Below are positions 25,541 through 49,078 of a DNA stretch of 64,000 nucleotides, one piece after another; position 1 is the first letter of the stretch; the number at the start of each line of letters is the position of its first letter. The notes below the pieces were generated by a model that saw only the letters and a list, made by a program, of their open reading frames with translations, was not told where the DNA came from and ran no database searches. The translations under genes were made by a program, and so were the position numbers. The stretch is from Flavobacterium aquaticum (GTDB lineage: Bacteria > Bacteroidota > Bacteroidia > Flavobacteriales > Flavobacteriaceae), in NCBI RefSeq assembly GCF_003259835.1, contig NZ_QLMI01000001.1, positions 310,001 through 374,000 on the forward strand. Direction: 5' to 3'.

Positions 25541-26887
25541 TTATCTTTTCTTTTTCTTCTCCGCACGTTTTCTTTCAACCGCTCGGTTTCTGGATTCTGT
25601 TTTTCTTGGAGTACGTTTTCCTGGACCTCCTAAGTTGACTTTAGTGTTTTTTTCTTTTTTCTTGTGAAATGCTTCGCCACCTTCTTTTTTAGGGGTTTTT
25701 AGTAAGAACTTCATTTTCTTCTTTTCCTTTTCGAAGTCTAAATAGCGTTCTTCTATTTTTAAATCTTCTGGAATAGGAAGTTCTTTGATTTCGGTATTCA
25801 TTAATAATTCTACCTCAATTTTTGGTTCTACTTCACTTGGAGAAATCAAACTTATAGCAACACCTGTTTTATCAGCACGACCCGTTCTACCGATACGATG
25901 CATGTATTTTTCTGGTTCTTCGGTGAATTGTAAGTTGATAACGTGTGTAATATCCGAAATATCCAAACCACGCGCCATGATATCCGTAGTAACCAAACCT
26001 CTTAATTCGCCCGCCTGAAAAGCTGCCATCGTATTCAAACGATAATTTTGTGATTTGTTTGAGTGAATCACACCAAATTGCTCAGGAAATTCACTTTCTA
26101 AAGTTTCGGAAACCAATTCAACTATACGTTTGTTGTTTACGAAAATCAACACACGGTCCATTCCTTCTGTTTCTCGAACCAAATGTTTCAATAGGTTCAA
26201 TTTGGTCAAGAAATTTGGAACTTGGTATACAATTTGTTCGATTTGTTCTAACGGAGTTCCGCTTTGAGCCAAAGATACTTCTTCTGGAAATTCAAAATAT
26301 TCATCTAACATCGCATCTACTTCTTCGGTCATAGTTGCCGAGAATAAGATGTTTTGTTTTTTGCCACGCATCATCGATAAAATTGAAGTCAATTGGGCAC
26401 GGAACCCTAAGTTTAGAATTTCGTCAAATTCGTCAATTACCAATTTTTGTAATTCATCGAAACGTAAAACACCATCTAAACCTAAATCCATTACACGACC
26501 AGGAGTTCCGATCAAAATATCTACACCTTCGGCTAATGCTTTTCGTTGTGTATTGATGTTAACACCACCATAAATTCCAAGTGTTCGCACACTCATGTAT
26601 TTGGTTAGTTTTTCAACTTCTTCTGCTACTTGCACAACTAATTCACGCGTTGGAACTAAAATAACAACTCTTGGCGATTCGTTATTTTGAAATTTCCATT
26701 GTTTTAAAATGGGTAATAAATAAGCAAAGGTTTTTCCAGTTCCTGTTTGTGCAATTCCCATCATGTCTCTTCCTGAAAGAATTACAGAATGCGATTTTTC
26801 TTGAATAGGTGTAGCGTGAACAAAACCTAATTCGTCTAATGCTTTTTGTAGTGATTTTGGTAAATCGAATTCTTGGAACGTTTTCAT
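25541..26887 (-). CDS. DEAD-box RNA helicase, RhlE type
   Basis: A 448-residue helicase with Q motif (FQEFDLPKSLQKAL), motif I AQTGTGKT, motif II DEFD in place of DEAD (VIDEFDEILNLGF), motif III SAT, and the C-terminal motifs FVNNKR, TDIMARGLD and HRIGRTGR. A basic tail of about 60 residues (KKKEKNT...KRAEKKKKR) would bind RNA. The ATG at 26887 begins MKTFQEFDLP; an upstream start at 26917 lies in the leader. DEAD-box helicases of this type help ribosome assembly and cold growth. The leader carries the structured element described at 26910-26980, shared with lpxA. Confidence 0.92.
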   Translation of the reverse strand: MKTFQEFDLPKSLQKALDELGFVHATPIQEKSHSVILSGRDMMGIAQTGTGKTFAYLLPILKQWKFQNNESPRVVILVPTRELVVQVAEEVEKLTKYMSVRTLGIYGGVNINTQRKALAEGVDILIGTPGRVMDLGLDGVLRFDELQKLVIDEFDEILNLGFRAQLTSILSMMRGKKQNILFSATMTEEVDAMLDEYFEFPEEVSLAQSGTPLEQIEQIVYQVPNFLTKLNLLKHLVRETEGMDRVLIFVNNKRIVELVSETLESEFPEQFGVIHSNKSQNYRLNTMAAFQAGELRGLVTTDIMARGLDISDITHVINLQFTEEPEKYMHRIGRTGRADKTGVAISLISPSEVEPKIEVELLMNTEIKELPIPEDLKIEERYLDFEKEKKKMKFLLKTPKKEGGEAFHKKKEKNTKVNLGGPGKRTPRKTESRNRAVERKRAEKKKKR

Positions 26888-26909
26888 ATGTTTGAATTGT
26901 ATTTTTATA

Positions 26910-26980
26910 GGTAACATATGTTATCGCCTTTTTCAAATATGTGTTTGCTTGAGCAAACTTGTGTTAGTGGCGATTTCATA
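26910..26980 (-). promoter_or_regulatory. leader element copy 1, upstream of the DEAD-box gene
   Basis: On the minus strand it starts TATGAAATCGCCACTAA, identical over 17 bases to the element before lpxA (48202). An outer stem pairs ATCGCC (26974-26969) with GGCGAT (26928-26923), and an inner perfect inverted repeat GTTTGCT-TG-AGCAAAC spans 26943-26958. A micro-ORF (26979-26905, 24 codons, starting MKSPLTQVCSSK) lies within. The GGCGAT arm ends exactly 35 bases before the helicase ATG, as in the lpxA copy. It may be a cis-acting RNA, a leader peptide or a small mobile repeat. Confidence 0.65.
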
Positions 26981-40388: not shown

Positions 40389-40466
40389 TGGTGGGCGATG
40401 AGGGGTTCGAACCCCCGACCCCCTCGGTGTAAACGAGGTGCTCTGAACCAGCTGAGCTAATCGCCC
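40389..40466 (-). tRNA. tRNA-Val (anticodon TAC)
   Basis: On the minus strand the 5' acceptor GGGCGAT pairs with ATCGCCC, the anticodon arm CTCGTTTACACCGAG carries TAC, and the T arm has GGGGTTCGAACCCC. The CCA end is encoded (40389-40391). The D arm GCTCAGCTGGTTCAGAGC is normal. The gene stands alone in a 285-base gap. Confidence 0.96.
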
Positions 40467-46807: not shown

Positions 46808-48196
46808 ATGGCGAAGCAAACAACAATTGCTGCAGAAATATCATTAAAAGGTGTAGGTTTACACACAGGTCAAGAAGTTGCAATGACTTTTAAACCAGCT
46901 CCTGTAAACAACGGATTTACATTTGTACGTGTAGATTTAGAAGGACAACCAATTATTGAAGCTGATGCAAATTATGTTGTAAATACGCAACGAGGAACTA
47001 ATTTAGAAAAATTAGGAGTAATGATTCAAACACCTGAGCACGTTTTAGCGGCGCTTGTGGGTTGCGATTTAGATAATGTTATCATCGAATTAAATGCTTC
47101 TGAACTTCCTATTATGGATGGTTCTTCTAAATATTTTGTTGAAGCTATTGAAAAAGTTGGAATTGTTGAGCAAGAAGCTGACCGAAAAGTATACGTAGTT
47201 AAAGAGGTTATTTCTTATTTAGATGAAACTACAGGAAGTGAAATTACTGTGATTCCTTCTGATGAATATTGTGTAACTGCAATGGTAGATTTTGGTACTA
47301 AAGTTTTAGGAACTCAAAATGCAACCATGAAAAGTATAAAAGAGTTTAAATCTGAAATCGCTGATTGTAGAACGTTTAGTTTCTTACATGAGTTGGAATC
47401 ACTTTTAAATAATGGTTTAATTAAAGGTGGCGATTTAAATAACGCTATTGTGTATGTTGATAAAGAAATTTCAGCTGAAACAATGGAAAATTTAAAGAAA
47501 GCTTTCAATAAAGAAACAATTTCAGTTAAATCTAACGGAATTTTAGATAATCTTACGTTGCATTTCCCTAATGAAGCTGCTCGTCATAAATTACTTGATG
47601 TCGTTGGTGATTTATCTTTAATAGGAACAAGAATCCAAGGAAAAGTTATTGCTAACAAGCCAGGGCATTATGTAAATACACAGTTTGCTAAGAAAATTGC
47701 TAAAATAATCAAATTAGAAGAGCGTAATAACGTTCCTAGTTATGATATCAACAAAGAGCCTGTAATGGATATTCATGGTATCATGGATTTATTACCACAC
47801 CGACCTCCATTTTTATTAGTTGATAAAATTTTAGAATTATCAGAAACTCATGTTGTAGGATTAAAAAATGTTACAATGAATGAAGATTTCTTCGTTGGAC
47901 ATTTTCCTGGAGCACCAGTAATGCCAGGTGTTTTACAGATTGAAGCTATGGCACAAACAGGAGGTATTTTAATTTTAAGTACTGTTCCAGATCCAGAAAA
48001 TTACTTAACTTATTTCATGAAAATTGACAATGTTAAGTTCAAAAATAAAGTCTTACCAGGTGATACCTTATTCTTTAAATGTGATTTAATTTCTCCTATT
48101 AGAAGAGGAATTTGTCACATGCAAGCGTATGCGTATGCAAATGGTAAATTAGTTTCAGAAGCCGAATTAATGGCACAAATTGTTAAAGTAAAATAA
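46808..48196 (+). CDS. lpxC-fabZ: LpxC-FabZ fusion (deacetylase and dehydratase)
   Basis: A 462-residue fusion. Residues 1-305 are LpxC, the zinc deacetylase of UDP-3-O-acyl-GlcNAc (IQTPEHVLAAL with metal His, AARHKLLDVVGDL with metal His and Asp). Residues from about 315 are FabZ, which dehydrates 3-hydroxyacyl-ACP (LLPHRPPFLLVDKI; GHFPGAPVMPGVLQIEAMAQ with catalytic His and Glu). This fusion is characteristic of Bacteroidota and joins two enzymes that compete for the same acyl-ACP pool. Confidence 0.96.
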   Translation: MAKQTTIAAEISLKGVGLHTGQEVAMTFKPAPVNNGFTFVRVDLEGQPIIEADANYVVNTQRGTNLEKLGVMIQTPEHVLAALVGCDLDNVIIELNASELPIMDGSSKYFVEAIEKVGIVEQEADRKVYVVKEVISYLDETTGSEITVIPSDEYCVTAMVDFGTKVLGTQNATMKSIKEFKSEIADCRTFSFLHELESLLNNGLIKGGDLNNAIVYVDKEISAETMENLKKAFNKETISVKSNGILDNLTLHFPNEAARHKLLDVVGDLSLIGTRIQGKVIANKPGHYVNTQFAKKIAKIIKLEERNNVPSYDINKEPVMDIHGIMDLLPHRPPFLLVDKILELSETHVVGLKNVTMNEDFFVGHFPGAPVMPGVLQIEAMAQTGGILILSTVPDPENYLTYFMKIDNVKFKNKVLPGDTLFFKCDLISPIRRGICHMQAYAYANGKLVSEAELMAQIVKVK

Positions 48197-48201
48197 AGAT
48201 A

Positions 48202-48270
48202 TATGAAATCGCCACTAAAACAACTTTGCGTAAGCAAAAACAAAAAATAAAGGCGATACCATATTTTACC
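48202..48270 (+). promoter_or_regulatory. leader element copy 2, upstream of lpxA
   Basis: Begins TATGAAATCGCCACTAA, identical over 17 bases to the element before the DEAD-box gene (26980-26910, minus). ATCGCC (48208-48213) pairs with GGCGAT (48252-48257); inside, TTTGC-GTAA-GCAAA spans 48225-48238. A micro-ORF of 15 codons (48203-48250, MKSPLKQLCVSKNKK) lies within. The GGCGAT arm ends exactly 35 bases before the lpxA ATG. Confidence 0.65.
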
Positions 48271-48292
48271 ATAAAAAATAAAATTTTAAAAT

Positions 48293-49078
48293 ATGAATCA
48301 ACCATTAGCTTATGTGCACCCAGGTGCTAAAATAGCAAGAAACGTAGTAATTGATCCTTTTACTACCATTCATAACAATGTTGAAATTGGTGAAGGAACT
48401 TGGATTGGTTCAAATGTTACCATCATGGAAGGTGCTCGTATCGGTAAAAATTGTAATATTTTTCCAGGAGCAGTAATTTCTGCGGTTCCTCAAGATTTAA
48501 AGTTTGGCGGAGAAGATTCGTTAGCGGTTATTGGTGATAACACTACAATCAGAGAGTGTGTTACTATTAATAGAGGGACAGTGGCTTCTGGTCAAACAAA
48601 AATTGGAAAAAACTGTTTAATTATGGCTACGGCTCACATTGCACACGATTGTCATATTGGTGATAACGCTATTATCGTAAATGGAGTAGCATTAGCAGGA
48701 CACGTAACTGTGGGAGATTTTGCAATCATTGGAGGTTTAGCAGCTGTACATCAATTTATTTCAATTGGGGAACACGCTATGATTTCTGGAGGAAGCTTAG
48801 TTCGTAAAGACGTTCCACCATTTTCAAAAGCCGCAAAAGAGCCTTTATCTTATGTAGGAATTAATTCAGTAGGATTAAGAAGAAGAGGTTTCTCAACTGA
48901 AAAAATTAGAGAAATTCAGGATATTTACAGAATTCTATACCAAAAAAATTACAATACAACTCAAGCATTGAGTATTATTGAAGCTGAAATGGAAGCAACT
49001 CCTGAACGCGATGATATTATTCAGTTTATCAGAAACTCTTCTCGTGGAATCATGAAAGGTTATACAAGTTCAATGTAA
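48293..49078 (+). CDS. lpxA: acyl-ACP--UDP-GlcNAc O-acyltransferase LpxA
   Basis: A 261-residue left-handed beta helix: LAYVHPGAKIARNVVIDPFTTIHNNVEIG, the catalytic His in MATAHIAHDCHIGDNAII, and the helical C-terminal part (VGLRRRGFSTEKIREIQDIYR). It starts lipid A synthesis by acylating UDP-GlcNAc. The 96-base gap from lpxC-fabZ holds the leader element at 48202-48270. Confidence 0.95.
   Translation: MNQPLAYVHPGAKIARNVVIDPFTTIHNNVEIGEGTWIGSNVTIMEGARIGKNCNIFPGAVISAVPQDLKFGGEDSLAVIGDNTTIRECVTINRGTVASGQTKIGKNCLIMATAHIAHDCHIGDNAIIVNGVALAGHVTVGDFAIIGGLAAVHQFISIGEHAMISGGSLVRKDVPPFSKAAKEPLSYVGINSVGLRRRGFSTEKIREIQDIYRILYQKNYNTTQALSIIEAEMEATPERDDIIQFIRNSSRGIMKGYTSSM

Follow-up and report, generated by a model that had tools for sequence, protein, structure and literature searches.

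Elements of the IS200/IS605 family and their non-autonomous derivatives have hairpin ends and a short fixed target motif beside the left end, and their mechanism involves guide-like pairing with those ends. Structured leader RNAs of the kind held in Rfam show a covarying fold ahead of start codons. Bacterial MITEs, among which PMC2229807 lists Correia/NEMIS, RUP and ERIC, are described there as short, non-coding, dispersed and folded, missing at orthologous sites and flanked by short direct repeats, and the same source presents the Rickettsia palindromic elements, which insert into coding sequences and are translated in frame with them. The repeats of the REP/RAYT system, as set out in PMC3686654, are short, folded and present in many copies, with a conserved head, GTAG or GTGG, ahead of a palindrome. 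For the hosts concerned here, PMC8710568 reports that Shine-Dalgarno sequences are rarely used in Bacteroidia and that initiation in Flavobacterium johnsoniae is aided by A-3, A-6, A-12 and A-13 and by low structure.

The window, which is the whole stretch of 64,000 nucleotides of Flavobacterium aquaticum that was analysed, holds two copies of a folded repeat that we read, with a probability of roughly 0.8, as a small non-autonomous mobile element of ~90 bases that targets start codons and carries a portable translation start. It differs from IS200/IS605 elements in having no clear Y1 linkage, a single segment that could serve both ends and a start codon as its target. It shares a covarying fold ahead of start codons with the leader RNAs of Rfam, but it has no match there at the gathering threshold (matches at relaxed thresholds were judged chance), is dispersed at unrelated genes and faces empty sites in relatives. 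In size and spread the element resembles MITEs and REPs, although it departs from some of their defining features. As with the MITEs of PMC2229807, it is short, non-coding, dispersed, folded and missing at orthologous sites, and its direct repeat behaves as a target-site duplication would, with ATGAA on both sides of most copies and a single ATGAA in empty sites. Unlike MITEs as that source characterizes them, it has a fixed ATGAA and no variable duplication, lies at start codons, brings its own translation signals and has no parental IS among the sequences searched; its ends, ATGAA-ATCGCC and CATATGAA, are by eye not mutually inverted, so that the terminal inverted repeats of a MITE are absent. 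Like the repeats of PMC3686654 it has a conserved head ahead of a palindrome and occurs in many short folded copies, whereas its head is ATGAA rather than GTAG/GTGG, no confident copy lies within the flanking sequence fetched for 40 Y1 loci (a subset of the Y1 hits), and its start-codon position and a covarying hairpin that includes the start codon set it apart from REPs as described there. With the Rickettsia elements it has in common a palindromic repeat of ~100 bases tolerated in genes (PMC2229807), but it replaces the start codon and remains outside the protein, apart from a few in-frame copies. A search of the open-access full-text literature found no paper describing such an element.

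Layout of the two window copies

The earlier note had described a leader element present twice, ahead of lpxA and of a DEAD-box helicase gene, and its sequence, stems and spacing are as it said. Both leaders begin with the same 17 bases, T followed by ATGAAATCGCCACTAA, from 48202 (+) and 26980 (-); both hold the outer stem ATCGCC/GGCGAT (48208-48213/48252-48257 and 26974-26969/26928-26923) and the inner stem TTTGC/GCAAA; the GGCGAT arm is separated from the ATG by 35 bases in each (48258-48292 and 26922-26888); and the outer loops, of 38 and 40 bases, differ by two. The extent given for the element was too short, for the similarity continues across those 35 bases into the start codon. An alignment of six copies from the same genome likewise reaches the start codon, with a mean column identity of 87% over 102 columns. 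The element therefore spans ATGAA-ATCGCC to CATATGAA, ~95 bases, and its last bases serve as the start codon of the gene that follows. With up to three mismatches allowed, a 22-base pattern derived after the fact from both copies matches these two places and no others, and 0/100 shuffles give two; the 16-mer alone is weaker evidence, with three matches at up to three mismatches, a number equalled in 9/100 shuffles. The parts of the two copies are as follows, with the basis for each in brackets.

48203-48297, + strand: element copy at lpxA, both ATGAA repeats included (sequence, own-genome alignment, covariance model)
48203-48207, + strand: left ATGAA, putative original lpxA start codon (empty sites in relatives, flank composition)
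48208-48213, + strand: 5' arm of the outer stem, ATCGCC, partner 48252-48257 (covariation)
48224-48239, + strand: inner hairpin CTTTGC-GTAA-GCAAAA, outermost C-A unpaired (folding, covariation)
48252-48257, + strand: 3' arm of the outer stem, GGCGAT (covariation, folding)
48260-48267, + strand: CATATTTT, partner of the start-codon arm 48288-48295 (folding, covariation)
48288-48295, + strand: start-codon arm AAAATATG, which includes the lpxA start codon 48293-48295 (sequence, covariation, folding)
48293-49078, + strand: lpxA ORF, hexapeptide repeats and Acetyltransf_11 (ORF list, domains)
26883-26979, - strand: element copy at the DEAD-box helicase gene, both ATGAA repeats included (sequence, own-genome alignment, covariance model)
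26975-26979, - strand: left ATGAA, putative original DEAD-box start codon (empty sites in G012, G023 and G032)
26969-26974, - strand: 5' arm of the outer stem, ATCGCC, partner 26923-26928 (covariation)
26943-26958, - strand: inner hairpin GTTTGC-TCAA-GCAAAC (folding, covariation)
26913-26920, - strand: CATATGTT, partner of the start-codon arm 26885-26892 (folding, covariation)
26885-26892, - strand: start-codon arm AACATATG, with the likely true start codon at 26885-26887 (sequence, relatives)
25541-26887, - strand: DEAD-box helicase ORF from its likely true start (ORF list, relatives, domains)

The ORF upstream of lpxA ends at 48196, and the left ATGAA lies 6 bases past its stop. At the other gene a TACCTTTGC stretch shortly upstream of the left ATGAA resembles what we take to be the Bacteroidetes -7 promoter motif. 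The DEAD-box gene was called by the ORF tool from 26917 (-), an ATG within the element, and relatives align from 26887; its true start is probably 26887 rather than 26917. At the gathering threshold, Rfam gives a single match across the window, a tRNA gene at 40392-40466 (-).

Position of copies across genomes and evidence for insertion

In the window's own genome (2.82 Mb) the sequence search returned six close copies and the covariance model a seventh, and 7/7, among the matches listed, end at the start codon of unrelated ORFs, namely those for DUF1684, DEAD helicase, LpxA, thiolase, a TPR protein, DUF4249 and a metallophosphatase. Five other 16-mer matches in this genome (C3:81776, C1:18274, C6:101343, C7:133407 and C10:6876) were set aside as chance, since the rest of the element is absent there. 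Model matches at E 0.1 or better occur in at least 43/100 related genomes. Within Flavobacterium they occur in at least 39/61 genomes, own included, with 0 to 41 matches each among those listed, a genome count that includes G016, where the inspected matches are cousin repeats, and G024, where the single match was judged chance, as were L216, L225 and L231.

The better-scoring part of more than 150 model matches was aligned, giving 97 copies from 95 loci (six from the own genome, the best match of each of 29 other genomes and 60 further fetched regions). ATGAA forms the right end of 95/97 copies and the left end of 93/97, the others having TTGAA (2), GTGAA (1) and AAGAA (1), and these counts lean towards ATGAA because the covariance model includes ATGAA ends. 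The ORFs are not in the model: in 91/97 copies the right-end ATG opens an ORF of at least 50 codons, and 97/97 have an in-frame stop inside the element or within 60 nt before it. The genome-wide search that had been proposed thus returns nonrandom positions. For comparison, ATGAA accounts for 178/396 ATG starts in the collected loci, and in the window it occurs 25 times at starts, 26 times in non-coding sequence and 264 times in coding sequence; binomial tails for ATGAA and start-codon enrichment, computed on copies that are not independent and with a model that itself contains ATGAA, are 1e-30 and 1e-21. Since copies lie mostly at starts though start and non-coding ATGAA are about equally frequent, selection or mechanism favours starts. 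In a set found by the left half only, 61/71 copies have an ORF that reaches 50 codons or continues past the locus end, under the looser rule of an ORF from an ATG no more than 75 bases from the GCGAT arm; under the rules used, 6/97 and 10/71 copies are without a 50-codon ORF. The named records behind the left-half set belong mainly to Flavobacterium; Allomuricauda, Flagellimonas and Aequorivita also contribute, as do some MAGs whose names are doubtful. An identical copy, flank and downstream N-terminus is seen in Allomuricauda, Flagellimonas and Aequorivita records (L319, L339 and L352), through recent transfer or contamination.

Sites in relatives provide the comparison between filled and empty states. 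In G012 and G023 the upstream flank passes directly into the ATGAA of lpxA, and in G012, G023 and G032 the flank of the DEAD-box gene joins its ATGAA directly; among the loci compared for these two genes (up to 30 fetched for each), a copy was seen by eye in the window's genome only. Other insert-like stretches, perhaps decayed elements, lie between the upstream gene and lpxA in L124 (G032) and L129 (G039). A COX1-like oxidase gene, which occurs in 16/61 genomes, shows all element states as judged by eye: the copy at the gene start is intact in G010, G045 and G017 and reduced to decayed remnants in G046 and G047, G036 carries a different cousin at that start codon, and the start is empty in 10 genomes. 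Empty sites show a single ATGAA and filled sites two, and therefore the element appears to insert at ATGAA. Filled and empty sites differ additionally by small changes near the junction, and for a single site precise loss rather than insertion could also account for the difference.

Where copies stand in tandem (G056, G061 and G128), neighbours share exactly the five bases ATGAA, which is what re-entry of the element into its newly regenerated ATGAA would produce. In G128 a copy sits at an internal ATGAA within a RAYT-like transposase frame (L373 1300-1760), and therefore the target would be the sequence and not the start codon per se. The left flanks resemble native starts, with A-3 at 0.55 and A-12 at 0.65 against a background of 0.59 and 0.65, and are richer in T (0.69 vs 0.54 at -1; 0.48 vs 0.33 at -2); the old initiation region appears to persist in the left flank. 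The five copies of G025 are 94% alike on average, which suggests recent spread, whereas mean likeness is only 77-84% in the ten further genomes compared that have at least three copies. Likeness is 0.836 within a genome and 0.803 between genomes, and the nearest copy lies in the same genome for 14/97 copies (shuffles: mean 5.6, largest 13). We infer insertion from these comparisons, and both the existence of the element and its insertion are well supported. The small mobile repeat settling in leaders that the earlier note had offered as one option agrees with the empty sites, the many unrelated genes and the ATGAA-sharing tandems.

Related repeats extend beyond the aligned set. All seven inspected loci of a 90-base cousin type in G056, CATATTCC...CATATGAA, end at an ORF of at least 139 codons, and three of three copies in G096 lie at ORFs of at least 71 codons; ATCCC-type copies in G061, partly tandem, are followed by a 50-codon ORF in 1/5 with enough sequence. 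Class-wide, matches at E 0.001 occur in at least 9/159 genomes, including two from the own genus; strict filters make this a lower bound. In a distant set of 30 inspected copies, one L382 tandem copy of which was added by hand, 16 are followed by an ORF that has at least 50 codons or extends past the end of the locus, and in 9 of the remaining 14 the copy leads into another one. The G016 matches (at least 41, and 77 in another model search) do not enter the start-codon counts; the ones examined belong to two cousin repeats located away from start codons, and tandem cousins there overlap by five bases of a sequence other than ATGAA. The first of these (L239, L238 and L252) consists of ~92-base tandem cousins with a GTTTGC/GCAAAC hairpin, a GGTGAT arm and an AAGCTG/CAGCTT end helix. 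The second (L248, L249, L210 and L228) has CCAAC/GTTGG and TTAATG...CATTAA and lies inside a longer conserved repeat unit.

Fold, covariation and translation start

Three helices covary: the outer stem, the inner hairpin and a right-hand helix in which CATAxxxx pairs with the start codon. Across the 97 copies, which are related and not independent of each other, changes on both sides were found in 14/20 base pairs, a result that 0/500 shuffles match; pairing cells amount to 97.4% vs 90.4% in shuffles, and the signal is lost on sliding the partner. These counts lean towards structure because the alignments were fitted to the model. A set including cousins shows covariation too, and in distant-family copies 11/19 pairs have changes on both sides, with outer stems such as ATAGCC/GGCTAT, ATCCCC/GGGGAT, ATACCC/GGGTAT and ATAACC/GGTTAT. 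The two stems for which covariation had been proposed as a check thus both covary, and what the earlier note considered the mark of a dispersed repeat only, random positions and orientations with no covariation, is not the pattern seen, with most copies at ORFs and most pairs covarying.

The start-codon helix takes the forms CATATGTT/AACATATG, CATATATG/CATATATG, CATTTTTG/CAAAAATG, CATAAATG/CATTTATG and CATAGATG/CATCTATG (CATAxxxx arm/start arm). Folding of full-length sequences gave this helix in 3/4 copies tried, and the lowest-energy fold of the DEAD copy alone does not form it; in folds of fragments without the start codon, the CAT of CATAxxxx is able to pair with the left ATG instead. Of the double changes between orthologous insertions, 14 are compensated and 1 is not; of the single changes, 6 preserve pairing and 10 break it. 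These counts omit L051/L115, whose flanks are dissimilar, and both flanks are similar in the ten other pairs tested; comparisons inside three-member groups are not independent, and a copy could have been replaced by a second insertion. They suggest that the fold is constrained in place after insertion. One orthologous pair, L096/L049, is intergenic and carries a compensated change (CATAGATG/CATCTATG vs CATAAATG/CATTTATG), although its right-hand ATG opens no ORF of more than 7 codons and the adjacent coding similarity is on the other strand. A function for the host is not established, since this pair precedes no ORF on that strand and decayed copies exist.

At the right end of the element A-6 stands at 0.89 and A-11 to A-13 at 0.89-0.95, in line with the signals reported in PMC8710568, so the element would carry most of an initiation region, plus a hairpin. 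A-3 is at only 0.07 at the new start, lost because the helix occupies the position. The frame from the old start stops 11 bases before the new start in 22/97 copies and at scattered positions elsewhere, and translational coupling of this upstream reading frame is possible. Many copies have an open frame running from the left ATG (MKSPLT...), which was considered as a leader peptide; coding selection was rejected because the element length varies by single bases and the frames drift. Lengths range from 94 to 102 bases, with two copies of 147-148. Similar extra stretches of ~47 bases, able to form another hairpin, occur in the inner hairpin loop of L119 and L064 (G025), possibly a nested second small element. 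Other short palindromic repeats interrupt copies near the GGCGAT arm or the CATA segment in L247, L300 and L351.

Mobilization, alternative readings and implications

The Y1 transposases and RVT_1 proteins compared with copy presence and number across genomes did not reveal the mobilizing enzyme. About 1.5 Mb of collected locus sequence holds no autonomous copy or parental transposon with the same ends, and the lone left and right ends in it are truncated copies, copies with other repeats nested in them, chance matches and locus ends. The DEAD copy is unmatched in the phage and plasmid collections searched, from which records near the own genome are possibly absent. The alternative that survives best, though we hold it only tentatively, is a single-strand element of the IS200/IS605 or REP/RAYT type mobilized in trans by a Y1 tyrosine transposase. 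By analogy, the hairpins, the fixed target at the left end, a similar right end and the segment that pairs with both ends would fit such a mechanism, and there is a weak association, with Y1 hits in 27/39 element-bearing genomes vs 9/22 others (p=0.056; 27/38 vs 9/22, p=0.030, with G016 left out). Against it, G000, G012, G016, G030 and G038 have at least five model matches and no Y1 hit at E 1e-5, G061 has copies and no Y1 hit at E 0.01, and rank correlation between Y1 hits and copy number is absent (rho 0.16, p=0.22); some RAYT-type proteins may be missed at E 1e-5 because the profile scores them weakly. The 40 Y1 loci without a confident copy in their flanks speak the same way, and one further Y1-like frame (G128) is itself interrupted by a copy.

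We consider it somewhat less probable still, and on balance unlikely, that the repeat is primarily a cis-regulatory RNA class (riboswitch-, thermometer- or attenuator-like), with a start-codon hairpin that senses a signal and dispersal secondary. Such a class would be consistent with a conserved covarying fold that includes the regulated site, in alignments fitted to the model, and with the compensated double changes, 14 against 10 pairing-breaking single ones, in orthologous insertions. However, the target genes inspected have no common function and show no conserved association with functionally related genes, relatives lack the element at the same gene (lpxA, DEAD and COX1-like), remnants at the COX1-like gene have decayed, and the compensated change in L096/L049 lies where no ORF follows. 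Between the two options of the earlier note, a cis-regulatory RNA or a mobile repeat, the second is supported and a cis-regulatory effect is only possible; its example, cold or growth-rate control of lipid A and the RNA helicase, finds no support, with unrelated targets among those inspected and, among the loci compared, lpxA and DEAD copies in the window's genome only. An RNA-based element, reverse-splicing or RT-dependent and entering mRNA start regions, would explain the strong preference for start codons over intergenic ATGAA and has a conserved fold with guide-like pairing in its favour, but this is quite improbable given that RVT_1 does not follow copy number (rho 0.08, p=0.56), that one copy lies within a RAYT-like coding frame and inspected G016 cousins lie elsewhere, and that the start preference could also come from loss of harmful intergenic insertions.

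For a small mobile element that targets start codons, we propose the following. The element would arrive by insertion at ATGAA, leaving ATGAA on either side, and the new ATG, with A-6 and A-11 to A-13 ahead of it, would act as a portable translation start. Arrival at a start codon may be tolerated, and the gene stay readable, because the element would supply a new start codon and initiation signals. The CAT-containing segment, also able to pair with the left ATG, may be the guide for recognition of ATGAA, whether by a trans-acting enzyme or by the folded strand itself, and tandem arrays would follow from repeated insertion at a regenerated ATGAA. With less weight, translation of the host gene might be tuned by the hairpin at the start codon together with the short frame that begins at the old ATG. 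Of this scheme, we infer the enzyme, the guide role and any regulatory role. A wider version, which we regard as speculative, is a class-wide nucleic-acid-guided mobile family that homes by guide-target pairing and whose own translation start would make hits in essential genes harmless. A CATAxxxx guide would then lead to start codons and a changed guide to other sites, an idea raised because the guide-like AAGCTG and the terminal CAGCTT have changed together in a G016 cousin.

If true, an element that targets and rebuilds start codons would be a new solution to the compactness of bacterial genomes. It would place into a hairpin the start codons of unrelated genes (in this window lpxA and a DEAD-box helicase gene), and would be a natural source of new 5' leaders, with shifted annotated starts and added upstream reading frames. 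As a movable module of initiation signals, it may make translation start in Bacteroidia testable.
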